DNA of 32,434 nt from IMG/VR virus record IMGVR_UViG_3300047274_000137, positions 1 through 32,434 of that record; one strand, given 5' to 3'. The notes under the pieces were generated by a model. It was not told where the DNA came from. It worked only from the letters and a program-made list of their open reading frames with translations, and did no database searches. Positions 15,837-32,434 of this stretch are shown piece by piece (position 1 is the stretch's first letter; each line of letters opens with the position of its first letter). Both the position numbers and the translations under genes were made by a program. The DNA comes from a virus.

Positions 15837-15867
15837 GGCTTACCCTTTCCCCCTTTTTGGGTGAGGC

Positions 15868-15904: not shown

Positions 15905-15907
15905 TGC

Positions 15908-15922
15908 TATCGTGAAACCATG
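15908..15922 (+). promoter_or_regulatory. Leaderless-type -10 box before the glycosyltransferase operon
   Basis: TATCGT (15908-15913) ends exactly six bases before ATG 15920. There is no Shine-Dalgarno because the upstream DNA is the terminator stem. The spacing equals that at 7783, 14270 and 18166. Confidence 0.5.
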
Positions 15923-18173: not shown

Positions 18174-18180
18174 AAGCATG
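18166..18180 (+). promoter_or_regulatory. Leaderless-type -10 box before the connector gene
   Basis: TAAACT (18166-18171) ends six bases before ATG 18178, inside the end of the cytidylyltransferase gene. It would restart transcription for the connector and tail operon. No Shine-Dalgarno is visible apart from AGAAG. Confidence 0.5.
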
Positions 18181-18777: not shown

Positions 18778-19184
18778 TGGCTAGCATTACGGCTATTCGT
18801 ACTGGTATTGCCACTAACCTGGCTACCATTAGCGGTTTGCGTACTGCGTCTACGATTCCTGACAACGTTAATCCGCCGTACGCTATCGTGATCCCTAACG
18901 GCGTTGACTACCATAAGGCGTTTGCTAACGGGCTGAATACTTATACGTTTACGGTGACGGTTGTTGTCGGGCGTGTATCTGAGCGTACTGCTCAAAACCT
19001 TCTTGATTCGTATTGTTCCCCTACTGGGTCTGCCAGTATCAAGGGTGCGATAGAATCAGATAGGACACTTTCAGGCACAGCGTTTGATTGTGTTGTTACC
19101 GGCATGAGAAACTACGGCTCTACGGTGATTGGCGAAAATACCTATTTGGCTGCCGAATTTGATTTGGTTGTCCAAGCTAACTAA
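18777..19184 (+). CDS. Tail terminator/completion protein (putative)
   Basis: The product has 135 residues. A helical start (ITAIRTGIATNLATI) is followed by 'NPPYAIVIPNGVDYHKAFANGLNTYTFTVTVVVGRVSERTAQNLLDSY', the pattern of the tail-terminator family in actinophages: a short strand with Pro-Pro-Tyr-Ala and a beta sheet with a helix. It would cap the tail and join it to the connector. Located between connector and major tail protein, as expected. GTG start directly coupled to the connector stop. Confidence 0.75.
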   Translation: MASITAIRTGIATNLATISGLRTASTIPDNVNPPYAIVIPNGVDYHKAFANGLNTYTFTVTVVVGRVSERTAQNLLDSYCSPTGSASIKGAIESDRTLSGTAFDCVVTGMRNYGSTVIGENTYLAAEFDLVVQAN

Positions 19185-19196
19185 TAAGGAAAACAA

Positions 19197-19604
19197 ATGG
19201 CAAAGTATGTTGCTACTGATCACAAGATCACTATTAACGGAACTGACTTTTCTTCTTCGCTTCAGTCGGTAGACCTTACCGTTTCGGCTGACGAGGTTGA
19301 AACTACCGCGTTCGGTGGCGCATGGCGTACCCGTACTGCTGGTCTGAAGTCGGGTTCGGTCACTCTTAACTTCTTCCAGGACTTTGGCGCAAGCTCGGTT
19401 GACGCAACCCTTTCGGGCCTGTTCGGCTCGAACGCTACTGTTGTTGTCACCCCTACCAGCACCGCTGTTTCAAGCACTAACCCTTCGTGGTCGGGTGTGT
19501 TCCTGGTTTCGCAGTACCAGCCTTTTGCTGCTTCGGTTGGCGATATCGCTACCCTTAGCGTCACTTGGCCTTCGGCTGGCACTATCAGCCGCGCCACCGC
19601 CTAA
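19197..19604 (+). CDS. Major tail protein
   Basis: The product has 135 residues. It is strand-rich, with 'ITINGTDFSSSLQSVDLTVSADEVETTAFGG' at the start, a signature of siphovirus tail tube proteins, and 'GDIATLSVTWPSAGT' near the end. An AAGGAAAAC site stands before the ATG. Codons are C-ending and resemble those of the capsid, which fits high expression. Its hexamers would stack to form the tail tube, whose length is set by the tape measure at 21224. Confidence 0.88.
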   Translation: MAKYVATDHKITINGTDFSSSLQSVDLTVSADEVETTAFGGAWRTRTAGLKSGSVTLNFFQDFGASSVDATLSGLFGSNATVVVTPTSTAVSSTNPSWSGVFLVSQYQPFAASVGDIATLSVTWPSAGTISRATA

Positions 19605-19628
19605 ACAAAATAACAAGAAAGTAAACAA

Positions 19629-19877
19629 ATGAAGATCAGCCTACGCATTGACTTCGCCGACGGAAGCACGAAAGACGTGGTGTGTTCAGCACCGGATTTC
19701 GTTGCTTTTGAAGATCGTTTCAATCTGTCTATTACTCGTCTTGATAAAGAGATGAAGTTTACGCACCTGCTGTTTTTGGGTTGGACTGCTTCGCACCGCA
19801 TGAAGGCTACGGCCCTTGACTTTGAGTCGTGGGTTGACACCGTTGATTCTGTTGGTGCTACCGGTAGCCCAAAATAG
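19629..19877 (+). CDS. Tail assembly chaperone, short form (G-like)
   Basis: The product has 82 residues, ending TAG 19875-19877. It has a beta start (MKISLRIDFADGSTKDVV), then a helical part 'VAFEDRFNLSITRL', 'THLLFLGWTASHR', and is placed between the major tail protein and the tape measure, the position of lambda gpG. The end of the frame contains a slippery heptamer, so a fraction of ribosomes continue in the -1 frame. It works with the tape measure to start tube assembly and is not part of the virion. Confidence 0.85.
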   Translation: MKISLRIDFADGSTKDVVCSAPDFVAFEDRFNLSITRLDKEMKFTHLLFLGWTASHRMKATALDFESWVDTVDSVGATGSPK

Positions 19878-20026
19878 AGGGTCTGGGCGATAGTAGCCAT
19901 CATTGGTATATCGCCTGGTTAGCTTGTGAAACTGGTATTGCTCCTAGTGTGCTGTTGGCTGAGTCTGACCGTATGTTGTGGACTATGGGCCGGTATCTGA
20001 TTTCCAAGAATCAGCCAAATAGGTAA
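19629..20026 (+). CDS. Tail assembly chaperone, frameshifted form (G-T-like)
   Basis: Reading to Lys82 and shifting back one base at 19868-19874 adds 50 codons, from ATA 19874 to TAA 20024-20026, for a total of 132 residues. The added part (IEGLGDSSHHWYIAWLACET, then PSVLLAESDRMLWTMGRYLI) has the W...A...G-I-P-S-x-L-L-x-E...W pattern of T-like extensions in actinophages. It has no start codon of its own with a ribosome site, so it can only be made by frameshift. The true span is a join: 19629-19874 and 19874-20026. Confidence 0.85.
19868..19874 (+). other. Programmed -1 ribosomal frameshift site (CCCAAAA)
   Basis: In the zero frame the codons are CCA AAA after a C, so the heptamer is C CCA AAA, a canonical X XXY YYZ slippery site, and the zero-frame stop TAG follows at once. 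tRNAs can re-pair on CCC AAA after slipping back one base. No experimental signal is available, but position and downstream protein similarity agree. Confidence 0.85.
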
Positions 20027-20028
20027 GT

Positions 20029-20064
20029 GAAAACCCCCGGTCGTTTGACTCGGGGGTTTTCCTT
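20029..20064. terminator. Bidirectional terminator between tail chaperone and reverse gene
   Basis: AAACCCCCG (20031-20039) pairs with CGGGGGTTT (20051-20059), with an A-tract on one side and TTTTCCTTTT on the other. It can end both the forward tail transcript, which stops at 20026, and the reverse gene, which ends at 20073. Confidence 0.85.
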
Positions 20065-20072
20065 TTGCCGTG

Positions 20073-20474
20073 TTAGGCGGTGATTGTGTTGAAGCCGTTG
20101 AGCTTGAAGTTGCCGTGTGCGATGATCTGGAACATGGCGAGGTCAATAGCCTTTTGCACTTCGGCTTCGGTGCGGCTGGTGTGTGCCAAATAATATTCTG
20201 CCCAGTCGCTGTTTTGAATCATGTTGTAGGCGATACCGACTACTAGACGCTGCCAGGTTGGGTTTGCGTGTGGAATGTTGCCGTTTTCGATTGCATAGCA
20301 GACGGCTTCCATAGCGTATACGTCGGTGAGTGTGTCTGCTAGGTCGTAGTGGACTGATCCAATTTCTGCCCAGATACGCTTTTCGGGGTTGCTGGTGAAG
20401 TTGCTGTTTACGTATTCGGCAACAATTTCCTGATAGGTAATGTCTAGGTCTGACATTGAGGTGATGGTTGACAT
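20073..20474 (-). CDS. Reverse-strand accessory protein inside the tail module (unknown)
   Basis: The product has 133 residues. It is acidic and helical: 'MSDLDITYQEIVAEYVNSNF', 'HYDLADTLTDVYAMEAVCYAIENG', 'TWQRLVVGIAYNMIQNSDWAEYYLAHTSRTEAEVQKAIDLAMFQIIAHGNF'. The start has a good AAAAGGGAAACC site, its own promoter at 20512-20541 (minus), and a terminator at its 3' end. It lies opposite to every gene around it, between chaperone and tape measure, the pattern of an independently expressed accessory (moron-like) gene. I recognise no family; superinfection or host-takeover roles are only possibilities. No signal peptide or membrane segment. Confidence 0.8.
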   Translation of the reverse strand: MSTITSMSDLDITYQEIVAEYVNSNFTSNPEKRIWAEIGSVHYDLADTLTDVYAMEAVCYAIENGNIPHANPTWQRLVVGIAYNMIQNSDWAEYYLAHTSRTEAEVQKAIDLAMFQIIAHGNFKLNGFNTITA

Positions 20475-20511
20475 GGTTTCCCTTTTCTGCCGTTTTCCCT
20501 TCGGCTGTTTC

Positions 20512-20541
20512 AGTATGGCATAAACACGGTTGGCTAGTCAA
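20512..20541 (-). promoter_or_regulatory. Promoter of the reverse-strand gene
   Basis: On the minus strand, -35 TTGACT (20541-20536) and -10 CATACT (20517-20512) are 18 bases apart, with TGC before the -10 giving an extended form. Transcription would start near 20505, about 30 bases before the ATG. The AAAGGGAAA ribosome site matches those behind the other TTGAC-type promoters. Confidence 0.65.
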
Positions 20542-20569
20542 TTCTTTTTTTGGCGTGTTGCGTGGTTGG

Positions 20570-20585
20570 TAGACTTGTAGGCATG
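20570..20585 (+). promoter_or_regulatory. Leaderless-type -10 box before the second tail operon
   Basis: TAGACT (20570-20575) ends seven bases before ATG 20583. It restarts forward transcription after the reverse gene and the terminator. No Shine-Dalgarno is present. Confidence 0.5.
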
Positions 20586-21224
20586 GCCGGTTTGAATCTG
20601 ATTATCCCTAAGTTTTTGGGGTCGTTGGGTCGTGCTGGTGTAAGTGCTGGTGATTATTCGGTGGCGGATATCCGTAATTTGCAACGTGCGCTGAAGGCTA
20701 TTGACCCTAAGTTGCGTACTCAGTTGTTGCGTGAGGCGAAAGCCCCTGCGAAACCTGTGCAGTCTGCTATCAAGTCGGCTATTCCTGCGGTTGCTCCGTT
20801 GTCTGGTATGACGCAGGGGCGTTTGGCGTGGTCTGGTTCGGTTGACGCTAAGGGCCGTAGTCATAACCCTAAAGATGTGAAGATTCAGTTTCGTACGTCT
20901 TCTAGCGGTAAGAGCCTTACGACTAGCTTGGTGCGTGTTCGTGTGGCTAGCCCGGCGGTTGTTATGGCTGACATGGCTGGTAAGTCTGGTCGGTTTATTG
21001 ACGCTGGCTATAAGGGGTCTGGTCGTACACGTGAATATAACTGGAAGGGTGGCCGTCGTACGCACCGTTTGAACGGTCAGGGTAGTGCGATGATCCGTGG
21101 CATAGGTGGTTCGCCGTCGCGTTTTGTTTGGCCAGCTGCGGAACGTTCGATTCCTGCGGCTCGTGCTGCGGTTGATCAGGTACTTACTAAGTTTGCTCGT
21201 ATGGTTAATCAGAAAGGCCTCTAA
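20583..21224 (+). CDS. Tail component, gp10-like (putative)
   Basis: From ATG 20583 the product is 213 residues, basic and rich in Gly, Ser and Ala. 'DIRNLQRALKAIDPKLRTQLLREAKAPAKPVQSAIKSAIP' resembles the opening of HK97 gp10-like tail completion proteins, and the end 'WPAAERSIPAARAAVDQVLTKFARMV' has the matching C-terminal helix. Normally such a gene lies before the major tail gene; here it is after the chaperones, just before the tape measure, so the assignment is tentative. A minor tail protein is the alternative. The start follows a TAGACT box; the stop shares one base with the tape measure ATG. Confidence 0.6.
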   Translation: MAGLNLIIPKFLGSLGRAGVSAGDYSVADIRNLQRALKAIDPKLRTQLLREAKAPAKPVQSAIKSAIPAVAPLSGMTQGRLAWSGSVDAKGRSHNPKDVKIQFRTSSSGKSLTTSLVRVRVASPAVVMADMAGKSGRFIDAGYKGSGRTREYNWKGGRRTHRLNGQGSAMIRGIGGSPSRFVWPAAERSIPAARAAVDQVLTKFARMVNQKGL

Positions 21225-23686
21225 TGGCTGGCAGTATCCTTCTACCGATTAAAGCCCTATTTGATGATAAGGGGCTGAAAGATGCCCAAAAAGGCTTTGC
21301 TTCTATGGGCAAGGGGCTTAAGGCTACGTTGGCTACGGTCGGTGTCGGTCTAGGGCTAAATGCGATTGTTGACGGTTTCACTAACGCGGCTAAGGCGGCT
21401 GCTGAAGATAACAAGTCGCAGGAACTTCTTGCTGCTCAGATTCGTAATTCGACGAGCGCAACCATTGACCAAATTGCTGCTAGCAAAATGTTTGTGGATT
21501 CTTTGTCGCTACAGACTGGAATTGTTGACGATGAACTGCGCCCGGCTCTAACTAACCTGGTTCGCGCTACTGGTGATCTTGGTAAGGCGCAAACGCTGTT
21601 GGCGTTGTCTACTGATATTGCTGCTGGTACTGGCCGTGATTTGGGTACGGTTACTAATGCGGTTTCTAAGGCTGCTAATGGTAATCGTACGGCTCTTGAC
21701 AAGCTTGTGCCGTCGCTCAAAAAGTCTAGCGATTGGGCTGGTGCTGCCGCCCTACAGTTTAAGGGCATGGGCGAGGCTGCCGGTAATGCTAACCCGTTTG
21801 CTAAGTTGACTGTTATTTTTCAGCAGTTGCAGGAGCAGGTTGGCTATGCGCTGTTGCCTTACCTTCAGCAACTTACCGAATACCTGACTTCGACTGAGGG
21901 CCAACAGCAGCTTCAAGAGTTGGTTTCTGTTTTTGTGAATTTGGCTGTTGCTATTGCGAATGTGGTTTCGTGGCTGATACAGAACCATAGTTGGATCGGT
22001 GCGCTGGTTACGGCTATTGGTGTGGCGGTTGCGGCGTGGGGTGTCTATTCGGCGGCTATGGCTGTTATGACGTTTGCTACGGGTACGGCTACTGCTGCGG
22101 TTAACGCTTTGAAGTCTGCGCTGATTTCGACTGGTGTCGGTGCGGTGCTGGTTATTTTGGGTTCGGTTGTTTCGGGCATTATGAGTATTGGCTCGGCGGC
22201 TGATACTGCGACTGGTCAGGTTGCTGGTTTGGCTCAGGCTACTGCTGGTGTTGGTATCAACCAGGGCGATATTTACGGTAATAAGCCGTGGGTGACTAGT
22301 GCTGGCTTGGGAACGCTTACAAATGTGCAGACCAAACCGGGTACGACTACCGATTATTTCGATGCGAAAACTAACACTTGGTGGACTTACACCTATTTGG
22401 GTGGCGGCAAGTGGTCTAAGAAGAAGATTACTTTTGGCGGCGATATTTCTACTGCGCCTAAAACTCCTGCTGGTGAAACGGCTGCTGAAAAGGCGGCTAA
22501 GGCCGCTGCTGAACTAGCGAAGAAGAATAAAGAAGCGTACGCGAAGATTATTGCTAGCGAAAACGAAATTCGTGACGCGATGCTACAGTCCGCTATTGAC
22601 AGCCGTGCCGCGATTCTGTCTATGCGTGAAGATTTTGCTTCGGTGCTGGAGGATGTTAAGCCGTTGCCAAAGGCGGCCGCGGTTGTTGGCGAGTTTGAGC
22701 AGCAGGTTGTTGATTCTTTCCAGGCTATTGAGGATCAGATTGCTTCTTCGTTGGCTGACGGTACGTTGCTACAGGATGCGGCCGACAACCTGCGTAAGTA
22801 TGCTGCGGCTGAAAAGGCTACGTTGGCTGGTATTGCCCGGCAGCGTGACGTTATTGCTAAGAAGCTGGATATTGCTAAAACGATTAGCGCGGATGTGTTG
22901 TCGTTTGGCAACATTAACGACTTGCTGGATCAGCAGACTAATACGGTTACGGAAACGTTTACTCGTATGGTTGACGGTATTCAGGTTGCGACTACACGTA
23001 GTTTTGAGCAGGTCACTTCTGGCGGTCTAGTAGACAACTTCAAAAAGGTTATTGAGAAAACTAAGGCTTACGCTAAAAACCTTATTGAGTTGAAGCGTCT
23101 GGGTTTGAATGGGCAACTGTTTAAGCAGATTGTTGATGCTGGCGTGGATGCTGGTGGCGCAACTGCTCAGGCGATTGTTGCTGGTGGCGCGTCGCAGGTT
23201 ACTGAACTTAACGCGCTGTTTGGTGAACTAAACGATTTGGGCGGCAAGGTTGCGGCTGAGTCTACTGATGTTATGTATGCGGCTGGCGAAGATGTGATGA
23301 ACAGCTTTATTCAGTCGTTGCTTGATCAGGATGCTGCGCTTCAGGCAACCGCTATTACGTTGGCTGAGTCGTTTGCTAATGCTTTCCGTAATAAGTTGGT
23401 TAGCCTTGCGCCTCTAATGAAGTTGCCTATGGAAACGTCACAGATTGCTCTTAGTGACGCGTTGACGGGTTATGTGTCTGACGAGTTGGGTCGTTCGTTT
23501 ACTGGCCCTTACAACTATTACGGGCAGCAGATGGTTGGCGGCCTGGGTGCGAACTACAACATTACGATTAACGCTGGTGCGATTACTGAAAAGGCTTCGC
23601 TTCCTGGTTTGATTGTTGATGCTCTTGCTACTTACACACGTCAGTCTGGTTCGGGTGCTTTGAATAGGGTTCTAAATATCGCATGA
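21224..23686 (+). CDS. Tape measure protein
   Basis: The product has 820 residues, the longest in the window, rich in Ala, Gly, Leu and Lys. It begins 'SILLPIKALFDDKGLKDAQKGFASMGKGLKA', typical of tape measures, and has hydrophobic stretches around residues 242-320 (VNLAVAIANVVSWL, WIGALVTAIGVAVAAWGVY, VLVILGSVVSGIMSI) and long helical coiled-coil-like parts. It sets tail length; at about 0.15 nm per residue the tail would be near 120 nm. It may also form the channel for DNA entry. A Thr/Gly/Tyr-rich piece with Trp repeats (about 355-400) interrupts it and may be an inserted domain. Confidence 0.93.
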   Translation: MAGSILLPIKALFDDKGLKDAQKGFASMGKGLKATLATVGVGLGLNAIVDGFTNAAKAAAEDNKSQELLAAQIRNSTSATIDQIAASKMFVDSLSLQTGIVDDELRPALTNLVRATGDLGKAQTLLALSTDIAAGTGRDLGTVTNAVSKAANGNRTALDKLVPSLKKSSDWAGAAALQFKGMGEAAGNANPFAKLTVIFQQLQEQVGYALLPYLQQLTEYLTSTEGQQQLQELVSVFVNLAVAIANVVSWLIQNHSWIGALVTAIGVAVAAWGVYSAAMAVMTFATGTATAAVNALKSALISTGVGAVLVILGSVVSGIMSIGSAADTATGQVAGLAQATAGVGINQGDIYGNKPWVTSAGLGTLTNVQTKPGTTTDYFDAKTNTWWTYTYLGGGKWSKKKITFGGDISTAPKTPAGETAAEKAAKAAAELAKKNKEAYAKIIASENEIRDAMLQSAIDSRAAILSMREDFASVLEDVKPLPKAAAVVGEFEQQVVDSFQAIEDQIASSLADGTLLQDAADNLRKYAAAEKATLAGIARQRDVIAKKLDIAKTISADVLSFGNINDLLDQQTNTVTETFTRMVDGIQVATTRSFEQVTSGGLVDNFKKVIEKTKAYAKNLIELKRLGLNGQLFKQIVDAGVDAGGATAQAIVAGGASQVTELNALFGELNDLGGKVAAESTDVMYAAGEDVMNSFIQSLLDQDAALQATAITLAESFANAFRNKLVSLAPLMKLPMETSQIALSDALTGYVSDELGRSFTGPYNYYGQQMVGGLGANYNITINAGAITEKASLPGLIVDALATYTRQSGSGALNRVLNIA

Positions 23687-24906
23687 TTACAGAATTAGTT
23701 GAGATTGGTTTTGACCTTACCGCTAACAATAGCGGCCCGTTTCTGACGCTTGATGATCCTGTGGCTGGTCGGTTGGACGATCCTGACTGGACTTTGGGCG
23801 GCGAGATTTTTTATGACGTTACTGACCGGGTGCGTTCGTGGTCTAGTAATCGTGGTAAGTCGCGTGCGTTGGATGCGTTTAACGCCGGTAATGCGTCTAT
23901 TGTGTTAGACAATAACACGCGTGATTTTGACCCTACGTATGCGGCTAGCCCGTTTTATGGGCAGATTATTCCTAAACGCCAGATTCGTATTTCGTCTAAT
24001 GGTGTTGTGCAGTTTTATGGGTTGATTGACGATTGGAATTTGGATTATGCGCCTCAAGGGGATTCTACTGCTGGTGTTGTATGTAGTGATGGCTTTGCCC
24101 AGCTTGCTAACCAGACGTTAACGGGGGCTACGGCTACTAGCCAGCTTTCGGGTGCGCGCGTTAACGCAATTTTGGATAGTGCTGACGTGAATTGGCCTAG
24201 CGATAAGCGTGCGGTTGATTCGGGTGAGGTGCTTCTTGGGGCTGACCTTATTCCTGATAACGGTAATGCGCTCACTTATTTGCAGTTGGTTGAAGCGTCG
24301 GAGGGTGGCCGCCTGTTCATTAGTAAGGCTGGCAACCTTGTGTTCAAGGATCAGAATGGCGTTCAGCCTGACGGTTCTAGTATTGTGACGTTTGCTGATG
24401 ATGGTAGCGGCGTGAAATATACGGGTATGCAGGTCGTTTATGGGTCTGAGCTGCTGTATAACCAGGCTGTTGTTTCGCGTGTTGGTGGGTCTACTACGAC
24501 CGCTAATGATACGGATAGTCAACAGGCGTACGGTATCTACACAATCACGAAGACCGATCTGCTGATGGCTTCTGATGCTGACGTGGATGCGTTGGCTGTG
24601 TCGCTGGTCAAACAGTACAGCGAACCTGAGTTTCGTTTTGAGGCGTTGACGGTTGACCTGAACCAGATTACTGGCCCACAGCAGACGGCGGTTTTGGGGC
24701 TTGAAATTGGTGACGTTGCGCTGATCAAGTTTACGCCGAACAACATTAGCCCGGCTATTGAAAAGTATGTTGAGGTTTTGGGTGTTGCTCAATCGTCTGA
24801 CCCTAATCGGCGTACGGTGACTTTGAACTTTGGAACACTTGACTACATTTCGTTTATTTTGGATGACGTGGCCTTTGGTAAACTTGACTCAGCCACTCTT
24901 GGCTAA
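23683..24906 (+). CDS. Minor tail protein (distal tail/baseplate type)
   Basis: The product has 407 residues. Its opening, with WTLGGEIFYDVTDRVRSWSS and RALDAFNAGNASIVLDNNTRDFDPTY, is the usual beginning of actinophage distal-tail proteins that follow the tape measure. 'YGLIDDWNLDY' and 'VVCSDGFAQLANQ' follow the same plan. It would close the tube and hold the tail tip. The ATG overlaps the tape measure stop (ATGA). A combined Dit/Tal role cannot be excluded, since no separate Tal gene is seen. Confidence 0.85.
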   Translation: MITELVEIGFDLTANNSGPFLTLDDPVAGRLDDPDWTLGGEIFYDVTDRVRSWSSNRGKSRALDAFNAGNASIVLDNNTRDFDPTYAASPFYGQIIPKRQIRISSNGVVQFYGLIDDWNLDYAPQGDSTAGVVCSDGFAQLANQTLTGATATSQLSGARVNAILDSADVNWPSDKRAVDSGEVLLGADLIPDNGNALTYLQLVEASEGGRLFISKAGNLVFKDQNGVQPDGSSIVTFADDGSGVKYTGMQVVYGSELLYNQAVVSRVGGSTTTANDTDSQQAYGIYTITKTDLLMASDADVDALAVSLVKQYSEPEFRFEALTVDLNQITGPQQTAVLGLEIGDVALIKFTPNNISPAIEKYVEVLGVAQSSDPNRRTVTLNFGTLDYISFILDDVAFGKLDSATLG

Positions 24907-24922
24907 ATAAGGAGCTTTTGTT

Positions 24923-25459
24923 ATGGCTGGTTTGGGTCGTAAGGTTTGGACTGCCGGTGATGTGTTGTCGGCGGCTAACTTGAATGGTTATGTGGCTGAT
25001 CAGGTTGTGCAGGTTTATGCTGGTACGGCGGCGCGTGGCACGGTTTTGAATGGGTCTGCTACTGAGGGTATGGTTACTTACCTGAGTGACTATAACTTGC
25101 TAGATGTGTATACCGGCAGCACGACCACTATGGGTTTGAATTATCGTACGGTTACTAGCATGACTGCTACCGCGTATACGGCTACTGTGGCTGACGCTAA
25201 TAGCCTTATTTTTGCTAGTAATGCTTCGGCGCAGACGATTACTATTCCTGACGTGTTTGCTATCGGTCAGGGTTTTGAGGTTATTCGTGAGGGTGCTGGC
25301 ACGGTTATCCTGGCGGCTGGTACTGGTTCGACTTCGTGGGCTGGTGCTGGTACTGCTGGTACTGCGGTGACGTTTAAGGTTGATCAGCAGTATAACGGCG
25401 CGCAGGTTATTAAGACTGCTGCTAATTCGTATCGTGTGATTGGTAAGGTCACGGCTTAG
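24923..25459 (+). CDS. Tail tip / fibre-base protein
   Basis: The product has 178 residues. The opening KVWTAGDVLSAANLNGYVADQVV is a familiar start of actinophage tail appendage proteins, followed by 'GMVTYLSDYNLLDVYTGSTT' and a Thr/Ala-rich beta body. AAGGAG precedes the ATG. It probably anchors the fibre-like proteins encoded next. No catalytic motif is visible. Confidence 0.72.
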   Translation: MAGLGRKVWTAGDVLSAANLNGYVADQVVQVYAGTAARGTVLNGSATEGMVTYLSDYNLLDVYTGSTTTMGLNYRTVTSMTATAYTATVADANSLIFASNASAQTITIPDVFAIGQGFEVIREGAGTVILAAGTGSTSWAGAGTAGTAVTFKVDQQYNGAQVIKTAANSYRVIGKVTA

Positions 25460-25460
25460 T

Positions 25461-26039
25461 ATGCCTTTTAGTTTGGGCTTTTGGGCGGCCGCCGGGGCTG
25501 GCGGTGCTGCCGCTGGTACAGATATGGAACTAATTAGCACAACCTTGCTAACTGGTGATACTTCTAGCGTCACTTTCAGCTCTATCGTCGGCACTTACAA
25601 ACACCTACAAATTCGTATGGTTACGCGTACGAATGAGGGTAGCGCAACGTATAGCGATTCTGGCCTTATGGAATTTAACAGCGATACCACTAACGGCAAT
25701 TACGCTGGCCACTTCTTGACGAGTAGTGGTGGAACACCTAGCTCGGGTACAACAGCGTTCAAAATTGGCACACTTCGTAATTTAGCGACGGCCCTAAATA
25801 CAGGATCAGCTTTCGCGGCTCACATTATTGACATTCCAGACTATGCCGCCTCAACCAAATACAAAACTGGCCGCGTGCTATCTGGTATGCACAACAATAC
25901 ATATTCCTCTTACGGCAATAGTTTGACTTCTATTCTTTGGATGAATACCGCTGCTATCACTAGCGTTACGCTCAAGCCAAATAGCGGCGTTAGCTGGTCT
26001 GGCGGTAGCCGTTTCTCACTTTATGGAATTAAGGGTTAG
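25461..26039 (+). CDS. Tail-tip paralogue 1 (putative receptor-binding)
   Basis: From ATG 25461 the product is 192 residues. After a Gly/Ala-rich linker the domain begins 'MELISTTLLTGDTSSVTFSS', then IVGTYKHLQIRM, 'HIIDIPDYAASTKYKTG', 'WMNTAAITSVTLKPNSG' and ends 'FSLYGIKG'. The two following genes encode the same scheme. It is the only copy with the N-terminal linker and so may be the one joined to the tail. The beta-rich, Ser/Thr-rich make-up fits a fibre or receptor-binding domain. The mid and 3' part of the gene is more A/C-rich than the genes before it. Confidence 0.7.
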   Translation: MPFSLGFWAAAGAGGAAAGTDMELISTTLLTGDTSSVTFSSIVGTYKHLQIRMVTRTNEGSATYSDSGLMEFNSDTTNGNYAGHFLTSSGGTPSSGTTAFKIGTLRNLATALNTGSAFAAHIIDIPDYAASTKYKTGRVLSGMHNNTYSSYGNSLTSILWMNTAAITSVTLKPNSGVSWSGGSRFSLYGIKG

Positions 26040-26041
26040 AT

Positions 26042-26533
26042 ATGGCTTCAGCACTTACAGCCCTGGCAAATACGACACTTGCTTCTACTGCTGCTTCGGT
26101 CACTTTTTCAAGCATTAGCGGCGCGTACCGCGATTTGATATTGGTTGGCACTTTTACTTCTGCAACTACCGGCTATTTTGGCGTGCGTGTAAATAGCGAT
26201 TCTGGTGCGAACTACTATTGGGTGCAATTTAATGCTGACGGATCAACGGCAGCTGGTAGTCAGTCAACAGGAGCAAGCTCCTACGGTCTAAATAACCGTT
26301 CGACCACTTCGACTACTGATGCTATGACGTGTGTTGTCAATATCTTGGATTACACAGCAACAGATAAACATAAAAACGCGCTGGTGCGAATTGGTCGTGC
26401 TGGTGGCAGCACCGAATTTAGTATGGGCCGTTGGGCTAATACTGCTGCTATTACTTCGGTTCAGGTTTATGGGGTAAGCACGGCTAACCTCGCTGCTGGT
26501 TCTACGTTTGCACTTTATGGGGTGTCTGCCTAA
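26042..26533 (+). CDS. Tail-tip paralogue 2 (putative receptor-binding)
   Basis: The product has 163 residues, about the same domain as its neighbours: TTLASTAASVTFSSISGAYRDL near the start, 'VVNILDYTATDKHKNALVRIG' in the middle, 'NTAAITSVQVYGVS' and a final 'FALYGVSA'. Compared with paralogue 1 it lacks the N-terminal Gly/Ala linker. It lies two bases from paralogue 1 and overlaps paralogue 3 by one base. Its own variation, in the loop-rich middle, would be where host specificity could change. Confidence 0.7.
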   Translation: MASALTALANTTLASTAASVTFSSISGAYRDLILVGTFTSATTGYFGVRVNSDSGANYYWVQFNADGSTAAGSQSTGASSYGLNNRSTTSTTDAMTCVVNILDYTATDKHKNALVRIGRAGGSTEFSMGRWANTAAITSVQVYGVSTANLAAGSTFALYGVSA

Positions 26534-27057
26534 TGGCTATGACTTTGATTAGCACTACTACCGTTGGTGCAGGTGGCGCAGCAGTCATAGACCTTACCGC
26601 TATCCCGAATACTTATACTGATCTTGTTTTGATGCTATCCCTGCGTAGTAACACAGCGCGAGCTTCGTCGGGTGGTTACGCTACTGTGCGTTTTAATGGC
26701 TCTTCGTCAACATATGCTCGCCGTATTCTGCTTGGTGATGGTTCTTCATCTGCTTCGGCTACTGACGCTAACGCGACTGTTCTAGTCAATCCGTCAGACG
26801 CTACGGCTAACACGTTCAATAATGCCGTTATTACAATTCCAAACTATGCCGGTTCGACTGCTAAATCTTTTTCTGTTGATGCTGTTAACGAAAACAACGC
26901 AACTACGGCAGATATGCAACTAATGGCGCAGTCTTGGTCTGGTACTTCCGCTATCACGCAGATTACTCTTACGCCTGGAGCGGGTAGTTTTGTTCAATAT
27001 TCGGTCGCTAGCCTGTATGGAATTACTAAGGGTAGCGGCGGCGCAACCGTAAGCTAA
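26533..27057 (+). CDS. Tail-tip paralogue 3 (putative receptor-binding)
   Basis: The product has 174 residues. It opens 'MTLISTTTVGAGGAAVIDLTAIPNTYTDLVLML', the most regular copy of the domain, continues with RFNGSSSTYARRIL, 'ITIPNYAGSTAKSFS', 'TSAITQITLTPGAGSFVQYSVASLYGI' and ends in a short Gly/Ala/Thr tail. The ATG overlaps the stop of paralogue 2 (TAATG). Together the three are probably tail-tip proteins with duplicated receptor-binding domains. Confidence 0.7.
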   Translation: MAMTLISTTTVGAGGAAVIDLTAIPNTYTDLVLMLSLRSNTARASSGGYATVRFNGSSSTYARRILLGDGSSSASATDANATVLVNPSDATANTFNNAVITIPNYAGSTAKSFSVDAVNENNATTADMQLMAQSWSGTSAITQITLTPGAGSFVQYSVASLYGITKGSGGATVS

Positions 27058-27072
27058 CAAGAAAGAAAACAA

Positions 27073-27303
27073 ATGACTACACCTACAAAGATTGTCGTTG
27101 ACTGCACTACTGGCGAACAGCAGGTTATCGAACTGACCGCTGACGAAATCGCACAACTTGAGGCGGATCGTGTCGCTGCCGAGGCGGCCCGTGCCGAACA
27201 GGAAGCCGCAGACCAGGCTAAGGCGGCCGCTAAAGCATCTGCTGAAGCAAAGCTAGCCGGGCTAGGTCTAACCGTTGAAGAAGTCGCTGCGCTTCTAAAG
27301 TAA
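27073..27303 (+). CDS. Coiled-coil protein of the tail region
   Basis: The product has 76 residues. A short beta start (KIVVDCTTGEQQVIELTADE) is followed by a long Ala/Glu/Lys helix (QLEADRVAAEAARAEQEAADQAKAAAK) and 'AGLGLTVEEVAALLK'. Small proteins with this plan often sit after tail fibres in actinophages and may be a trimerising or chaperone component. It lies behind an A-rich leader GAAAGAAAACAA. Confidence 0.65.
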   Translation: MTTPTKIVVDCTTGEQQVIELTADEIAQLEADRVAAEAARAEQEAADQAKAAAKASAEAKLAGLGLTVEEVAALLK

Positions 27304-27349
27304 ACTAGTATTGCCGCTACGCACGGCGTGATTTAGAAAGAGTATCCCC

Positions 27350-27556
27350 GTGCCTGATAACGCTGACAAACTACTACTTCAGATTGTTGCTGACCTTGCC
27401 GAAATTAAAGCAACGGTTAAAAACTATGCTGACCTTGAGTTGCGTGTTCGTGATCTTGAAAAAGCCCGGTGGTCTAGTGCGTGGCTGACTGGTATTTTGT
27501 CGGCTGCTGTTTCGTCTGGTGTTGTTGCTTTGATTATGAAAGTGTTGGTGGCATAA
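27350..27556 (+). CDS. Holin-like protein (one membrane helix, XhlA type)
   Basis: The product has 68 residues. The first ~45 residues are amphipathic helix (LLLQIVADLAEIKATVKNYADLELRVRDLEKARW) and the rest one hydrophobic span (WLTGILSAAVSSGVVALIMKVLV). This layout, charged coil then one C-terminal membrane helix, is that of haemolysin XhlA-type and many phage holin partners. It directly precedes the endolysin (GTG one base after its stop). A TAAACT box at 27301 could drive the lysis genes, although the -35 is poor. Confidence 0.7.
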   Translation: MPDNADKLLLQIVADLAEIKATVKNYADLELRVRDLEKARWSSAWLTGILSAAVSSGVVALIMKVLVA

Positions 27557-27557
27557 A

Positions 27558-28055
27558 GTGGCTGAGTATTTTGACCCGTTTAAGGGTAATCGTGGTGACG
27601 AGCTGGGCAACATGGCTTCGTACCGTAAGCATCCTCACCGTGGTAGCGACTGGGGTGCAAAAAAGGCTATTGAGAATAAGCCGATTGTTGCTATTACTAC
27701 TGGCCGTGTCAAGAAGGTGTTTTGGTCTGACGTTCTCGGTCATTGTCTAGTACAGGGATCGGCTGACGGTTTCAACTGGTTGTATGCCCACCTTGCCGCT
27801 AAGCCTTCGTGGGAGGTTGGCAGTATGTTGGTTGGCGGCCAGCAGGTTGTAGGTAAGGTTGGTGGCGGTAAGAATACGCCTAGCGGTACTGCTTCGACCG
27901 GTGCACACCTACATATGGCTGGCTGTAAGGCTACTGACGGTGTTGATGTTCACCTTGTTGGCTATGAAAAGCTGGTGGATGTTCATAAGCATATTGACGC
28001 TAACCGCCCGAAAATTGTTGCGACTGGCGCGAACAGCGAGGGCGCACGTGGTTAA
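27558..28055 (+). CDS. Endolysin, M23-family metallopeptidase
   Basis: The product has 165 residues. It has the zinc ligands of LytM/M23 enzymes: His27 and Asp31 in HPHRGSDWG, and His119 in STGAHLHM (His117-x-His119), with YAHL (His78 region) between. It cuts peptide cross-bridges of the host wall. The short length, without a wall-binding repeat, suggests a single-domain enzyme. It is flanked by two membrane proteins that could be holins. No signal peptide is seen, so release depends on them. Confidence 0.88.
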   Translation: MAEYFDPFKGNRGDELGNMASYRKHPHRGSDWGAKKAIENKPIVAITTGRVKKVFWSDVLGHCLVQGSADGFNWLYAHLAAKPSWEVGSMLVGGQQVVGKVGGGKNTPSGTASTGAHLHMAGCKATDGVDVHLVGYEKLVDVHKHIDANRPKIVATGANSEGARG

Positions 28056-28329
28056 GATACGTAAGATTGCGCGTATCGTCGGTGAAATCGCGTGGCGTTC
28101 TTTTGGGTTGGGTCTTGTGGCTTTCCCTGGTGGTGCTGTGGCAGGTACTCTTATTCCTGGCGGTGACGCTATTAGCGGTGGCTGGATTGCGTTTGTCTCT
28201 ACTTTTGTCATTGTCTGCACGGTGCTTGGTATCGCTATTGCTACTACGGGCAAAGTTACTGAAACAGACATTAACACCGCGTTCTCGCAAGCGGTACAGA
28301 AGGCGATGGAAAAGGATAAGAAAAACTAG
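28048..28329 (+). CDS. Second holin-like membrane protein
   Basis: From GTG 28048 the product is 93 residues. A basic start (VKIRKIARIVGEIAWRSFG) is followed by two hydrophobic stretches (LGLVAFPGGAVAGTLIPGG and WIAFVSTFVIVCTVLGIAIA) and a charged C-terminal helix (DINTAFSQAVQKAMEKDKKN). This fits a holin with two membrane helices. The gene overlaps the endolysin by eight bases and shares the palindrome CTAG with the convergent WhiB stop. Either this or the 27350 protein is the main holin. Confidence 0.75.
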   Translation: MVKIRKIARIVGEIAWRSFGLGLVAFPGGAVAGTLIPGGDAISGGWIAFVSTFVIVCTVLGIAIATTGKVTETDINTAFSQAVQKAMEKDKKN

Positions 28330-28616
28330 CGGATAGGCCGCCGGTTTTTCAGTAGCTCTTTTCTTTCTTCTGGGGTTGTGCCAGCCCAGATCCCGTATTC
28401 TTCTCGTGCTTCTAGCGCATAGTCTAGGCACGCGGTTGCGAATGGGCAGTCTGCACAGACGCTTTTGGCTAGCATTTGTGTAATTTTTTGGGCGTATTCA
28501 AAGCCTTCCGCAAAAAACAATTCTGGGCGTGCTTCGCAGGGTGGTTTGTTTCCTGTTTCGCGAATTTGGTGGGATAGTGTCCGGTATTTCATGGCGGCAC
28601 GATCTGTAACGAACAT
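28326..28616 (-). CDS. whiB: WhiB-family [4Fe-4S] transcription factor
   Basis: The product has 96 residues. Four cysteines are at 27, 54, 57 and 63 (C-x26-C-x2-C-x5-C), followed by EEYGIWAGTTPEERKEL (73-89), the G-(I/V)-W-x-G turn that binds the sigma factor; a basic end (LKNRRPIR) would touch DNA. Such proteins exist only in actinobacteria and their phages, which fixes the host group. Phage copies can alter host transcription, or block host WhiB function. AAGGAGA precedes the ATG. It is transcribed opposite to the late genes and divergent from the recombination operon. Confidence 0.93.
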   Translation of the reverse strand: MFVTDRAAMKYRTLSHQIRETGNKPPCEARPELFFAEGFEYAQKITQMLAKSVCADCPFATACLDYALEAREEYGIWAGTTPEERKELLKNRRPIR

Positions 28617-28673
28617 GGTTCTCCTTTATTGTCGGTGCTGGTAGTTAGCCTAGACGAGTTGAAAGGATTTTGT
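28617..28673. promoter_or_regulatory. Divergent control region between WhiB and the exonuclease
   Basis: The 57 bases hold the ribosome sites of both genes (minus AAGGAGA, plus AAAGGA at 28662-28667) and TAGCCTA, which reads TAGGCTA on the other strand, so a -10-like TAGSCT box faces each direction. I cannot identify -35 boxes. WhiB could regulate its own region here. Confidence 0.4.
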
Positions 28674-29552
28674 ATGGACTTTTGGGATATTGAAAAAACT
28701 AGCGTGGCCAAGTTGTTGGGTGTGTTTGAGTCTGGCTCGGCGGAGTGGCACGCGGCTCGTGGCGGTCATGTGGTGACTGGTTCAACTATTGGCGCGGTGA
28801 TGGGCTGTAATCCTTGGGAGTCGGCTGTTACGCGCTTCTATAAGGCTGCAGGGCGTGTGTCTGACCATGTTGAACCGAATGTGTCTATGCGTATTGGGTC
28901 GTTGATTGAACAGCCGCTACTGGATTTGTTCCAGGAGCAGCATCCTGAACTTACCGTGTATAAAACAGGCACTTGGGTTAGCAAAGCGAACCCGGCGTTT
29001 CTGGCTAATCCTGACGCGATCTTTGTTGACGGTGACGGTGTGCCGGGCATTATTGAGGTGAAGTTTGCGCGGTCGTATTGGTCTGACGGTGTACCGCTTC
29101 ACTATCAACTTCAGTTGAACTGGTATTTGGGGTTGTTGGGGTTCACTAAGGGCCGGTTTGTGGCTTTGGCTGGTTCGACGTGGACTGACTTGCCGTACGA
29201 GTTTGACCAGTTTTTGTTTGATACGCAGGTGGCTGCTGCGGAAGACTTTTTGGAGCGGTTGGCTGAGGATCGTGCGCCTGACTGGGATGGGGCAGCAAAC
29301 ACGCTGGAAACCGTACGCAAGTTGAATCCTGACATTGACGGTAGCGAGGTTGAGCTTGGCCCGTTAGCGGCCGAATACTTGGATTTGTGCCGTCAACAGT
29401 CTGAGATTGAATACGACTTGAACACGACAAAGGCGGAAATGCTTGCGTGGATGGGGTCGGCTAAGTATGGTTTGTATTCGGGGCAGCGTATTGTTGCCCG
29501 TCAAAGCAGGTCTGGCGGTACGCCTTACCTGGTGAATGTAAAGGAAAAGTAA
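28674..29552 (+). CDS. YqaJ-like viral recombinase / exonuclease
   Basis: From ATG 28674 (AAAGGA upstream) the product is 292 residues. The opening 'SAEWHAARGGHVVTGSTIGAVMGCNPW' is characteristic of the YqaJ/lambda-exonuclease group, with a later GIIEVKFARS carrying the E-x-K of the PD-(D/E)XK nuclease. 'HYQLQLNWYLGLLGF' follows, again typical. It chews 5' ends so that the partner annealing protein at 29695 can recombine strands. The last part is helical. The next gene starts on its stop (TAATG). Confidence 0.88.
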   Translation: MDFWDIEKTSVAKLLGVFESGSAEWHAARGGHVVTGSTIGAVMGCNPWESAVTRFYKAAGRVSDHVEPNVSMRIGSLIEQPLLDLFQEQHPELTVYKTGTWVSKANPAFLANPDAIFVDGDGVPGIIEVKFARSYWSDGVPLHYQLQLNWYLGLLGFTKGRFVALAGSTWTDLPYEFDQFLFDTQVAAAEDFLERLAEDRAPDWDGAANTLETVRKLNPDIDGSEVELGPLAAEYLDLCRQQSEIEYDLNTTKAEMLAWMGSAKYGLYSGQRIVARQSRSGGTPYLVNVKEK

Positions 29553-29695
29553 TGGCTGATAAAGCACCGAACATTTATGAAGTGGTGACGCGTCATAATG
29601 AAGCAATCTTGTCGCTGATGGAGGCGGTCAAGGCGTTGACGGGGATTCTTGAGGAACTGGTTGACGATGTGGCGAAGTTGAAAGGTGAAAAGTAA
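29552..29695 (+). CDS. Small helical protein between exonuclease and annealase
   Basis: The product has 47 residues, ATG 29552 to TAA 29693-29695. It is a coiled-coil-like helix: VVTRHNEAILSLMEAVKALTG and LEELVDDVAKLKGEK. It shares overlaps with both neighbours (TAATG at each side), so it is part of the recombination operon and may be an accessory factor. No family is recognised. Confidence 0.65.
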   Translation: MADKAPNIYEVVTRHNEAILSLMEAVKALTGILEELVDDVAKLKGEK

Positions 29696-30207
29696 TGGCT
29701 AACTTTAATCTCGCGGATTACGAAACCGTAGAGCAGCGTCACGCACGCGCTATCGAAGCTCACCCCGATCTACGCTGCGTTATCGTAAACCACACGACAC
29801 CGGCAGACCGCGCTAACGGCGTTTGGGTTGTTGAAGCACGTGTTTATTTGAGCGATGCTGATCAGGCCGCTGACCTACCGAAAGCCGTTGACTGGGCTTT
29901 TGAGGTTGACGGTCAGGGTATGGCTAACAAAACTTCGGCTCTTGAGAACGCGGCTACGTCGGCTTTGGGTCGTGCGCTTCGTTGGGCTTTTGCTGGGTCT
30001 AAGGGTGCTAGCCGGGAAGAAATGGAAAAAGTTCAGCGCAACGTAACCCCTGTAAAGGTACGTGACTGGAACAGGGAACTTTCTGACCTGCTGTTTAATA
30101 AAGACGCTGACGGTATCCGTAAACTGTATGTGGCAGCCGTATCAGGCAAAGCTGATCCTGCCATGATTGAAAAGATTAAAGATGCCGGAATTAAAATCAC
30201 CAACTGA
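29695..30207 (+). CDS. Single-strand annealing recombinase-like protein (putative)
   Basis: The product has 170 residues. The block 'WAFEVDGQGMANKTSALENAATSALGRALRWAFAGS' matches the T-S-(A/F)-x-E-N-A-x-T-S-A-x-G-R-A-L signature seen in phage Erf-like and related single-strand annealing proteins. Placed two genes after a YqaJ-type exonuclease, it would pair complementary strands, forming a two-component recombination system with it. The C terminus (WNRELSDLLFNKDADGIRKLY) is helical. Which annealase class it belongs to is not clear from sequence alone. Confidence 0.72.
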   Translation: MANFNLADYETVEQRHARAIEAHPDLRCVIVNHTTPADRANGVWVVEARVYLSDADQAADLPKAVDWAFEVDGQGMANKTSALENAATSALGRALRWAFAGSKGASREEMEKVQRNVTPVKVRDWNRELSDLLFNKDADGIRKLYVAAVSGKADPAMIEKIKDAGIKITN

Positions 30208-30367
30208 ACGCGTTTTGTGGGCGGCCATCCAGGAGCAGTCTGAACTTATTTTGGAGTTGTGTGCTTGGGATGAAGATAAGTGGATGGTTAGCCGGGCTAT
30301 TGACTGGCGTGATGGTTTGATTAGGAAGCTTAATGGATGTGCTGACACCGGCGCAAGTGGTCGCTGA
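30182..30367 (+). CDS. Hypothetical helical protein
   Basis: The product has 61 residues from ATG 30182. It is helical and has several tryptophans (VLWAAIQEQSELILELCAWDEDKWMVSRAIDWRDGLI). It overlaps the annealase-like gene by 26 bases and the next gene by 35, which suggests compact coupled translation. A longer reading from 30167 has a poorer start. Function unknown. Confidence 0.5.
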   Translation: MPELKSPTERVLWAAIQEQSELILELCAWDEDKWMVSRAIDWRDGLIRKLNGCADTGASGR

Positions 30368-30671
30368 ACAGAATAGGTTGATGGCGGAGGCCCAGAAGGG
30401 TATTCAGGCTTTGTATAAGGCTGAGATTGCGGTGGCCGAAGCTGACTTGGCGTATGAACGTGAACTGGCTTTGTCGTTTGTGAATAGTGATGGGTCTGTG
30501 GCTGATCGTCAGGCGGTTGCTAAGTTGCAAGCTGGTGAGAAGAAGTTGGCTTTGGATTTTGCTAAGGCTGAGTTGAATCGTGTGAAGGCTAAACTGCGTG
30601 CTAATGATTCGGCGCAGGTTGCTGTTTCGGTTATTGCCCGTCAGGTTGAGAATGAGTTCCGTCGTGGATAA
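30333..30671 (+). CDS. Helical protein of the recombination region (unknown)
   Basis: The product has 112 residues, highly helical and rich in Ala, Glu, Lys and Arg: 'AEAQKGIQALYKAEIAVAEADLAYERELALSF', GSVADRQAVAKLQAG, 'ALDFAKAELNRVKAKLR'. Proteins with a VAEAD-x-AY opening and a VADR block are frequent near recombination genes of actinophages but have no assigned job. It may be a coiled-coil partner of the exonuclease or annealase. The ATG is in the 3' end of the preceding gene. Confidence 0.65.
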   Translation: MDVLTPAQVVAEQNRLMAEAQKGIQALYKAEIAVAEADLAYERELALSFVNSDGSVADRQAVAKLQAGEKKLALDFAKAELNRVKAKLRANDSAQVAVSVIARQVENEFRRG

Positions 30672-31002
30672 GAAAAGTTTGAAGAAGTTGTTTGCGCGTG
30701 ATGCTGGTTGCTGGCATTGTGGGGTCAATGATGAAACGCTTGTGCCGCACCATCGCTTGAATCGGGGTATGGGCGGTAGCCCTAGTCGTGACACGTTGGC
30801 TAACGTTATTTTGATTTGTAGCCGCTATAACGGTCAGGTTGAGGATTCTAGTTTTTGGGCTGATCGTGCTAGGTCGCATGGCCACAAGCTACGTATGGGC
30901 CAAGACCCGGCTAGCGTGCCGGTGTTTCATGTGCCTGAACAAACCTGGTATTTGTTAGACGATGCAGGGAATAAGCGACACGCTGAAACAGAATTGACTT
31001 GA
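30652..31002 (+). CDS. HNH endonuclease-like protein
   Basis: From ATG 30652 the product is 116 residues. A basic start (DKKSLKKLFARDAG) leads into CWHCG, then VPHHRLNRGMGG, then 'TLANVILICSRYNGQVED', in which HH, Asn and the late Asn fit an HNH nuclease. The C-terminal part (VPVFHVPEQTWYLLDDAG) is a small beta unit. Unlike the two HNH genes near terminase it is in the recombination region. It overlaps the preceding gene by 20 bases, and the -35 of the methyltransferase promoter is in its last codons. Confidence 0.78.
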   Translation: MSSVVDKKSLKKLFARDAGCWHCGVNDETLVPHHRLNRGMGGSPSRDTLANVILICSRYNGQVEDSSFWADRARSHGHKLRMGQDPASVPVFHVPEQTWYLLDDAGNKRHAETELT

Positions 31003-31042
31003 ACTAGTCGTTTCTGGTTTACTGGTTGCGGAAAGGGAAAAA
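30994..31042 (+). promoter_or_regulatory. Promoter and ribosome site of the methyltransferase
   Basis: -35 TTGACT (30994-30999) and -10 TTTACT (31018-31023) are 18 bases apart, with TGG before the -10. AAAGGG (31032-31037) lies before ATG 31043. The same AAAGGGAA ribosome site follows each of the four TTGAC promoters in this genome. Confidence 0.65.
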
Positions 31043-31624
31043 ATGACGCGTCTAAAAATAGGGTCGCTGTTTAGCGGCTATGGTGGCCTTGATCGGGCTG
31101 CCGAAAATGTGTTTGATGCCGATACTGTTTGGCATTGTGAATGGGATGATGCGCCGAGCAAGATTTTGGCGGCACGTTATCCGGGCGTACCAAATTACCG
31201 TGATGTTTCTAAAGTGGATTTCACGGCGTTAGAGCAAGTAGATATTTTGACTGGCGGTTTTCCTTGCCAGGATTTGAGTTTGGCTGGCAAAAGGGCTGGC
31301 TTGAAAGAGGGTACTAGAAGTGGACTTTGGAGCGAATTCGCGAGAGCAATTGACGAGCTACAACCCCGATTCGTTATTGCCGAGAACGTTAGAGGACTCC
31401 TCAGCGCAACAGCCCATAGCGATTTGGAATTCTGCCCGTGGTGTATGGGAGAAACTCATTCCGAACCTGCTTTGCGCGCACTTGGGGCTGTTCTCGGAAG
31501 TTTGGCCGACCTCGGGTATGATGCGCGATGGGTTGGTGTTCGGGCTGCCGATGCTGGCGCACCGCATAACCGGTTTAGGGTTTTCATCCTCGGTATCAGA
31601 CGAGAACCTGTTGAGGAGTCCTAA
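31043..31624 (+). CDS. Cytosine-5 DNA methyltransferase, catalytic N-terminal part (motifs I-VIII)
   Basis: The product has 193 residues. Motif I is SLFSGYGGLD (8-17), which binds S-adenosylmethionine; motif IV is GGFPCQDLS with the catalytic Cys75; motif VI is ENV (114-116); motif VIII is NRFRVFILG (176-184). The frame then stops at TAA 31622-31624. A complete m5C enzyme of this type continues with a target-recognition domain and motifs IX and X, and these are encoded by another frame that starts inside this gene (31320). So this is one half of a split enzyme, or the first part of a frameshifted one. It would methylate cytosine, probably to protect phage DNA against host restriction. Confidence 0.88.
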   Translation: MTRLKIGSLFSGYGGLDRAAENVFDADTVWHCEWDDAPSKILAARYPGVPNYRDVSKVDFTALEQVDILTGGFPCQDLSLAGKRAGLKEGTRSGLWSEFARAIDELQPRFVIAENVRGLLSATAHSDLEFCPWCMGETHSEPALRALGAVLGSLADLGYDARWVGVRAADAGAPHNRFRVFILGIRREPVEES

Positions 31625-32434
31625 AGCTTCTGAGGGTCAGGGCGGTGCGCTAGGTGAAGCTGAAGCGTTGAAGCGTGGTAATACTGTTGCTGTGCGTGAT
31701 CCAATTATGGATTTGGTTGCCGGGCAAGGCCTTAAGGTTTCGCGTGTTAGCGACAATTTGCTGCCTACGCCTGTTGTGAACGATATGGGTGCAGGTAAAA
31801 CCGTTGACGGTTGGGATGAATGGACTGCCAAAACTAAGGCTAAGCATCAAAACGGGAATGGTCATGGCCCTAGCCTAAATATTGAAATGCTACGGCTACA
31901 AGATCAGGCTGATATTCAACTGCTTATGACTCCTATGGCACAAGAAGGAATAAAAGCACCAGCCCAACAAACTAGCGAAGTCAAAGGTAAAACTGGTCAG
32001 GTATGGCTCTCTAACCAGGCTAAGGATATGGAACTGGCTTGGGGTAAGTTTGAGCCGGCTATACGCCGTTGGGAGGCTGTTCTCGGCCGCCCTGCCCCAG
32101 CCCCTACTAAACCTGATGGCAAGGATGGCGCACACCGTCTAAGCTCGGCGTTTACTGAATGGATGATGGGGCTGCCTGAGGGTTGGATTACTGGTGTCGG
32201 GTTGACTCGTAATGAAGAGTTAAAGGCTTGTGGTAATGGTGTTGTGCCTCAACAGGCTGAGTTGGCTTTGCGTATGCTGCTAGATGGCATAGATCTAGAA
32301 CCAACTAGGGGGGGGCAAGTGATGTTGCCAACGCCAACGGTTAGTGACACATTCACTAGCAATCTAAAATCTTCTCAGCAAAAAGAAGGTTCGATGCACT
32401 CGGTCACGCTGCCGCAAGCAGTTGAGCGACTAAT
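31320..32434 (+). CDS. Methyltransferase target-recognition/motif IX-X subunit, nested start, runs through the contig end
   Basis: The frame is open from 31305, and a GTG at 31320 follows AGAGGG (31306-31311). It overlaps the catalytic gene for 305 bases in the +1 frame and then goes on alone to the edge, continuing at 3-182 (389 residues in all). The first part has NSREQLTSYNPDSLLPRTLE and WPTSGMMRDGLVFGLPML, conserved in the phage 'SREW...PSSGMTR' group; then an LPTP motif at about 31758 with NDMGAGKT; then WEAVLGRPAPAPTKP, EWMMGLPEGW (motif IX) and GNGVVPQQ (motif X). The catalytic gene lacks IX and X, so the two products probably act together. The G8 tract (32308-32315) is inside this gene. 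Confidence 0.8.
   Translation, partial: MDFGANSREQLTSYNPDSLLPRTLEDSSAQQPIAIWNSARGVWEKLIPNLLCAHLGLFSEVWPTSGMMRDGLVFGLPMLAHRITGLGFSSSVSDENLLRSPKASEGQGGALGEAEALKRGNTVAVRDPIMDLVAGQGLKVSRVSDNLLPTPVVNDMGAGKTVDGWDEWTAKTKAKHQNGNGHGPSLNIEMLRLQDQADIQLLMTPMAQEGIKAPAQQTSEVKGKTGQVWLSNQAKDMELAWGKFEPAIRRWEAVLGRPAPAPTKPDGKDGAHRLSSAFTEWMMGLPEGWITGVGLTRNEELKACGNGVVPQQAELALRMLLDGIDLEPTRGGQVMLPTPTVSDTFTSNLKSSQQKEGSMHSVTLPQAVERL
32308..32434. repeat. Direct terminal repeat, right copy (assembly closure)
   Basis: Identical to bases 1-127. The junction falls in the methyltransferase subunit gene and the frame is kept across it, so the ends join. The G8 tract at 32308-32315 is the first part of the repeat, and homopolymer length differences among reads may be why the assembler opened the circle here. 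Confidence 0.95.

Follow-up and report, generated by a model that had tools for sequence, protein, structure and literature searches.

Two overlapping reading frames under purifying selection encode the probable halves of a split phage m5C methyltransferase

In this study we show that two reading frames written over the same bases of a phage cytosine methyltransferase locus are both protein-coding, and that both are under purifying selection across their overlap. The window that we analysed is a complete virus record of 32,434 bp (Table 1). Comparison with relatives shows that the methyltransferase motifs are divided between two chains, A and B, and that B has conserved start sites of its own. 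We think it likely, with a probability of about 0.84, that the locus encodes a two-chain m5C methyltransferase in which B is made as a separate polypeptide from its own start and pairs with A; the pairing and the activity are inferred.

Gene A matches the Pfam family DNA_methylase (PF00145, E 7.7e-39), TIGR00675 and, in the PDB, HhaI and HaeIII. It carries motifs I (FSGYGG), IV (GFPCQ, with PCQ), VI (ENVRG, with ENV) and VIII (HNRFRVF) and stops after the last of these. The frame of gene B, +1 relative to A, is open from 31305, after an in-frame TGA at 31302-31304, and its product contains a small beta domain, LPTP-type TRD-like modules and motifs IX and X. Residues 28-322 of B match phrog_1008, a DNA methyltransferase family (E 7e-54); a Pfam search with gene B returned no model, and a profile search of the PDB with it gave nothing meaningful. 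Taken as a C5-cytosine DNA methyltransferase, the locus thus has motifs I, IV, VI and VIII in one chain and IX and X also present. The first and last 127 bases of the window are identical (1-127 and 32308-32434), and we treated the record as circular; since the ends share this repeat, gene B is not truncated but reads across the seam to contig position 182. The repeat has a common assembler k-mer length and starts inside a G tract. A circular contig that was broken at that tract during assembly is more probable than a true terminal repeat. Directly 5' of gene A lies an HNH endonuclease gene (30598-31002; phrog_740 match).

Table 1. Features of the methyltransferase locus, in window coordinates
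Feature	Position	Strand	Details
Window, whole virus record IMGVR_UViG_3300047274_000137	1..32434	5' to 3'	32434 bp
Gene A, catalytic m5C chain	31043..31624	+	ATG 31043, TAA 31624; 193 aa
Gene B, recognition chain	31320..32434, on to contig position 182	+	GTG start; 389 aa in all
Shine-Dalgarno (SD) AAAGAGGG	31304..31311	+	8-nt spacer before GTG 31320
Dual-coded overlap of A and frame B (+1)	31320..31624	+	305 nt, partial overlap
Most strongly selected stretch, both frames	31403..31552	+	third-position constraint, dNN/dNS, pLDDT; codes B residues 28-78
Beta-domain pattern in B, WN..R..VW......LF...WP.SGMM.RDG..F.LP	31403..31552	+	
Motif IX in B (RLSSAFTEWMMGLPEGWIT; RLSSAFTEWMMGLPEGW)	32136..32192	+	sequence; columns nearly invariant in 76 relatives
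Motif X in B (GNGVVPQQAELAL)	32232..32270	+	sequence; columns nearly invariant in 76 relatives
G8 tract, probable slippage (phase-variation) tract, in frame here	32308..32315	+	copy at 1-8
Extra TRD-like module 3' of motif X (MLPTPTVSDTFTSNLKSSQQKEGSMHSVTLPQAV...)	32322..32434, then contig 128-182	+	

A DNA search with the whole region found no match among isolated phages, and relatives were therefore sought by protein. Viral contigs were scanned with A and B as queries, which yielded 160 loci; nearly all of these have B in frame +1 relative to A, with an overlap of about 200-320 nt. For the selection analysis we used 100 non-redundant family members aligned by A. It might be argued that the openness of the +1 frame is a mere by-product of the amino acids and codon usage of A, with B beginning only near the end of A, and some residues of B are indeed partly forced by conserved motifs of A (SGM from LGY, RTLE from ENVRG). 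Against this, no +1 stop was observed in A codons 123-185 of the 100 loci, while synonymous recoding of A leads to an expectation of 269 +/- 14. The same recoding would leave about 4 relatives with a stop-free overlap (100/100 observed), and for the window alone it gives a P of about 0.004. The +2 frame of the same codons and loci holds 311 stops. Elsewhere in A there is no excess of openness (300 +1 stops in codons 40-105, 316 expected), and three ordinary methyltransferases (L403-L405) are close to expectation with 3, 6 and 5 stops against 2.2, 3.9 and 3.6. A first set of monomeric controls (L327-L387) proved unsuitable because it also carries a +1 SGM stretch; in true monomeric controls, methyltransferases of Klebsiella, Enterococcus and SPbeta-like phages, +1 stops are at or above expectation. 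Hence we regard the by-product explanation as all but excluded.

The substitution pattern points to the same stretch. Differences at fourfold sites amount to 0.54-0.68 in codons 1-90, drop to 0.25-0.43 across codons 121-170 (31403-31552) and return to 0.59 over codons 171-180, and synonymous changes of A are roughly halved within the overlap. When single changes were classed by their effect in both frames, dNN/dNS for B was 0.242 in the overlap (0.184-0.313, bootstrap over loci) and 3.73 in control codons (2.65-5.35, likewise); in codons 93-113, upstream of most B starts, it was 7.2. As position and transition biases are uncorrected, the baseline for this ratio is the control value and not 1; the low value in the overlap relative to the control indicates that both proteins are selected there. 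For A itself an ANBN/ASBN of 0.106 within the overlap shows purifying selection too. Three residues of B, W43, G66 and G71, are invariant, and all of them lie within the dual-coded part. A weaker tail of selection extends past 31552 to about 31594. In the window's own subset of relatives, the 21 upstream codons (93-113) show no clear fall in third-position constraint, and their dNN/dNS is 1.35 against 5.3 in the control codons of the subset, resting on few changes. The loci are related by descent, so that Fisher tests and pair counts overstate significance.

The initial annotation, made from the sequence alone, had proposed that the catalytic gene and a second frame, +1 to it, code over the same bases, and had suggested frame-specific substitution rates in homologues as a check. 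The proposal held in the selection tests on 100 relatives, and the check found purifying selection in both frames. Its claim of selection in both frames over about 100 codons held only in part: selection in both frames is clear for about 50-65 codons, and support for the ~27 codons with which B begins at 31320 is weak and comes from the window's subset alone. An unconserved upstream part of B, combined with a single frame in close relatives, was named as refuting; this is not what we found, given the three invariant residues there.

An AlphaFold2 model of B, built with 76 relatives, predicts a small five-stranded beta domain at residues 31-80 (block means of pLDDT 80-92), with the same range of pLDDT for the dual-coded residues 30-78, and modelling this domain alone gave the same strands. 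The predicted domain coincides with the constrained DNA stretch; at residues 81-103 confidence is low, and the model turns disordered where the DNA constraint ends. A Foldseek search with the beta domain alone returned no significant PDB match, which leaves its fold relation unresolved. For the C-terminal part of B (243-330) the closest matches, though weak ones, are with the corresponding region of DNMT3 and DRM methyltransferases, as expected for motifs IX-X.

Across the family gene B begins at one of three alternative sites. Site (i) is an ATG that arises from the +1 reading of Glu-Asn-Val (GAA AAT GTN) in the ENV of motif VI, and the Asn codon is AAT in 89/100 loci compared with 104/217 (about half) elsewhere. 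Site (ii), a GTG or ATG within Leu-Ser-Ala, in most cases follows immediately on an in-frame stop; here the preceding Arg-Gly is written AGG GGN, a Shine-Dalgarno (SD) sequence, in 42/44 loci, compared with 4/50 in the ATG class (i). Site (iii) is a GTG in RSGLW with an SD, and this is the window's GTG 31320. All six loci that lack (i) and (ii), the window among them, have the site (iii) GTG and an open frame (3/94 of the others do as well), and all six have an SD match of 4-5 nt. In most relatives B starts 50-80 nt downstream of the position of GTG 31320. Fisher values on these counts ignore shared ancestry. The start originally proposed for B, GTG 31320 with its own SD, thus holds for the window's subset, while the family mostly starts further downstream.

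These starts bear on the possibility of a programmed +1 ribosomal frameshift near the end of A, which would yield one fused protein with motifs I-X and leave upstream B without a separate product. Two observations speak in its favour: some relatives (L064, Akhila) are fused in a single frame, and TAC CCC, at which a ribosome might slip by +1, occurs close to the end of A in many relatives. However, the end of A is variable without a conserved site, and the window has no CCC site. A fusion would leave the upstream +1 frame untranslated, yet selection on the B frame is found exactly there. The conserved start and SD codons of B likewise favour internal initiation over frameshifting, which we consider very unlikely. 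Given a metagenomic contig and the existence of fused relatives, one might also suspect that an error of sequencing or assembly introduced an indel into a gene that is normally fused. This is all but excluded, as about 100 non-redundant contigs share the same +1 overlap, and so do phage isolates that were sequenced independently. Two outcomes named beforehand as refuting, an indel joining the frames and a single frame in close relatives, do not hold in general: two frames are kept and fusions are rare. In the natural in-frame fusions, Akhila gp60 and L064, frame A continues into recognition modules and the beta domain is missing; it is thus possible that this domain is dispensable for catalysis.

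Among isolates, a tblastn search with B matched 573 phage records, 437 of them Mycobacterium phages, and the same layout was seen again in independently sequenced actinophages. Several of these list two 'DNA methylase' genes that are the same A/B pair as in the window (Chickaboom 41/42, Scottish 68/69, Darrell 83/82), but isolate annotations usually miss or shorten one gene of the pair. In Chickaboom B is annotated from 27783, yet its frame is open from 27492, and the annotated B of Scottish is truncated as well, in both cases cut so as to avoid the overlap; in Geodirt and Jinkies gene A is not annotated. We found no description of the actinophage overlap in the literature searched, and two papers that deal with phage methylase genes (PMC9957025, PMC11855218) are silent on it in the relevant passages.

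Naturally split m5C methyltransferases have been described before. In M.AquI the larger chain holds motifs I-VIII and the smaller one the distal variable region with motifs IX-X (PMC3404938), the same partition as between A and B here. In contrast to the window, no long dual-coded overlap is described for M.AquI in that paper, and the window's B has further features: additional recognition modules, a poly-G tract and a beta domain that shares its coding bases with motifs VI-VIII of A. M.EcoHK31I consists of two polypeptides that are both needed (PMC3404938, PMC3439449). Its small-subunit gene is nested in another frame of the large-subunit gene. The window shares with it subunit genes in overlapping, different frames, but not the partition, in which motif X is in the large chain and only IX in the small one: here A ends after motif VIII, X is in B, and the overlap is partial (305 nt). 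The locus thus resembles M.AquI in motif partition and M.EcoHK31I in overlapping coding.

We propose that chain A would supply AdoMet binding and the catalytic PCQ/ENV half, and that chain B, translated in the +1 frame from an internal start within gene A (here GTG 31320), would contribute motifs IX and X together with the recognition modules and the small beta domain. On this view, genes A and B overlap because motifs VI-VIII of A and the first domain of B are coded by the same bases. Both chains may fold together as one active enzyme in which B sets the specificity, and the phage may use this enzyme to shield its own DNA from host restriction; these steps are inferred, without expression, complex or methylation data. 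Alternatively, B could be a separate protein with another role, such as regulation or a second specificity, and A could work with or without it. In two relatives (L073, L079) motifs I-X are indeed all in frame A, and the +1 ORF holds only the beta domain and LPTP modules. The window's A, however, lacks motifs IX and X, which are found only in B, and we consider a separate role unlikely. The earlier suggestion of two co-encoded halves of one m5C enzyme is hence supported by the selection, the B starts and the divided motifs, with a single active enzyme remaining an inference.

A nested form of the same arrangement was found in about 80 Dcm-like phage enzymes (L168-L247). Their frame A codes for motifs I-VIII and X, and a +1 ORF that lies wholly inside it has SGM-type sequence and LPTP modules and, in many cases, motif IX as well; this is the M.EcoHK31I partition as given in PMC3404938, which L080/L081 show too. 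Among loci without motif IX in frame A, 31/31 scorable ones have no +1 stop before motif VIII (about 69 stops expected). In nested-type enzymes dNN/dNS falls from 2.7 to 0.26 along the gene. The nested type has already been noticed by annotators, since gp56 of Paenibacillus phage Shelly (NC_041909) is annotated both as DNA methyltransferase and as 'g55 internal gene'. Shelly differs from the window in that its gene is nested, within a gp55 of 345 aa, and in the N-terminal sequence of the +1 product.

Open +1 frames were noted in other methyltransferases too. In L073, L079 and L327-L382, with motifs I-X in frame A and some of them in Streptomyces chromosomes, the +1 frame is stop-free (22/22 loci with motif IX in frame A) and mostly has a WP.SGM-type motif. 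The m5C genes of Lactococcus, Streptococcus, Brochothrix and Coprococcus phages (L400, L401, L409, L410) have all motifs in one frame; their +1 frame is also open over a long stretch and has sequence in common (GM..G, DILE..VD.KYYLS), singly of low to moderate significance. A separate family, mostly from Proteobacterial genomes (L365, L384-L387), has a conserved +1 K.SMMTY..WV..LRRACLQRKKSA.R over the motif VII-VIII region.

The G8 tract is the only G/C run of seven or more in the window and sits between motif X and the extra TRD-like module. This module adjoins motif X in 28 loci, and in 25 of them a G6-G11 or (GA)n tract immediately precedes it (background 9%). The module shares the frame of B in 21 of the 28 loci, whereas it is shifted to +1 in 4 and to +2 in 3. 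Tract length shifts the frame between loci with matching flanks: L014 (G9) is in frame, L049 (G10) and L044 (G7) are not. Poly-G or (GA)n tracts at this place were seen in L014, L044, L049, L040, L092, L057, L064, L055 and L162. A phase-variable locus has a repeat in a coding frame whose length alters that frame, and this holds across relatives only, not within one population. We therefore consider it likely that the length of the G tract adds or drops one recognition module of B, with probably phase-variable specificity; switching itself was not observed. The module LPTPTVSDTFT..LKSSQQKEGSMHSV (32322-32434) is about 82-88% identical to one in the nested +1 proteins L080/L081/L082. This similarity to otherwise distant phage methyltransferases suggests that recognition modules are exchanged as units. 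By a narrow margin we also favour a bolder reading, in which phage m5C enzymes widely carry a recognition chain in the +1 frame over motifs VI-VIII, partial or nested and with movable starts, and in which poly-G or (GA)n tracts toggle an extra module in this actinophage lineage, making the specificity split, dual-coded and phase-variable.

In conclusion, our analysis adds evidence that both frames are selected, start sites that move between relatives, a broad spread of the arrangement over phages, and a module that is probably phase-variable. Few long same-strand overlaps in double-stranded DNA phages have been documented together with selection on both frames, and this one is found again across many phage lineages, where annotation rules that discourage overlaps suppress it. 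Owing to these rules many deposited genomes probably list a truncated subunit or miss one, which would account for phage methylases often looking incomplete. The locus provides a natural example of a domain that evolved on top of a catalytic core already in place. It also suggests that slippage in a homopolymer allows phages to vary the specificity of their methylation, the switching and the methylation being inferred.
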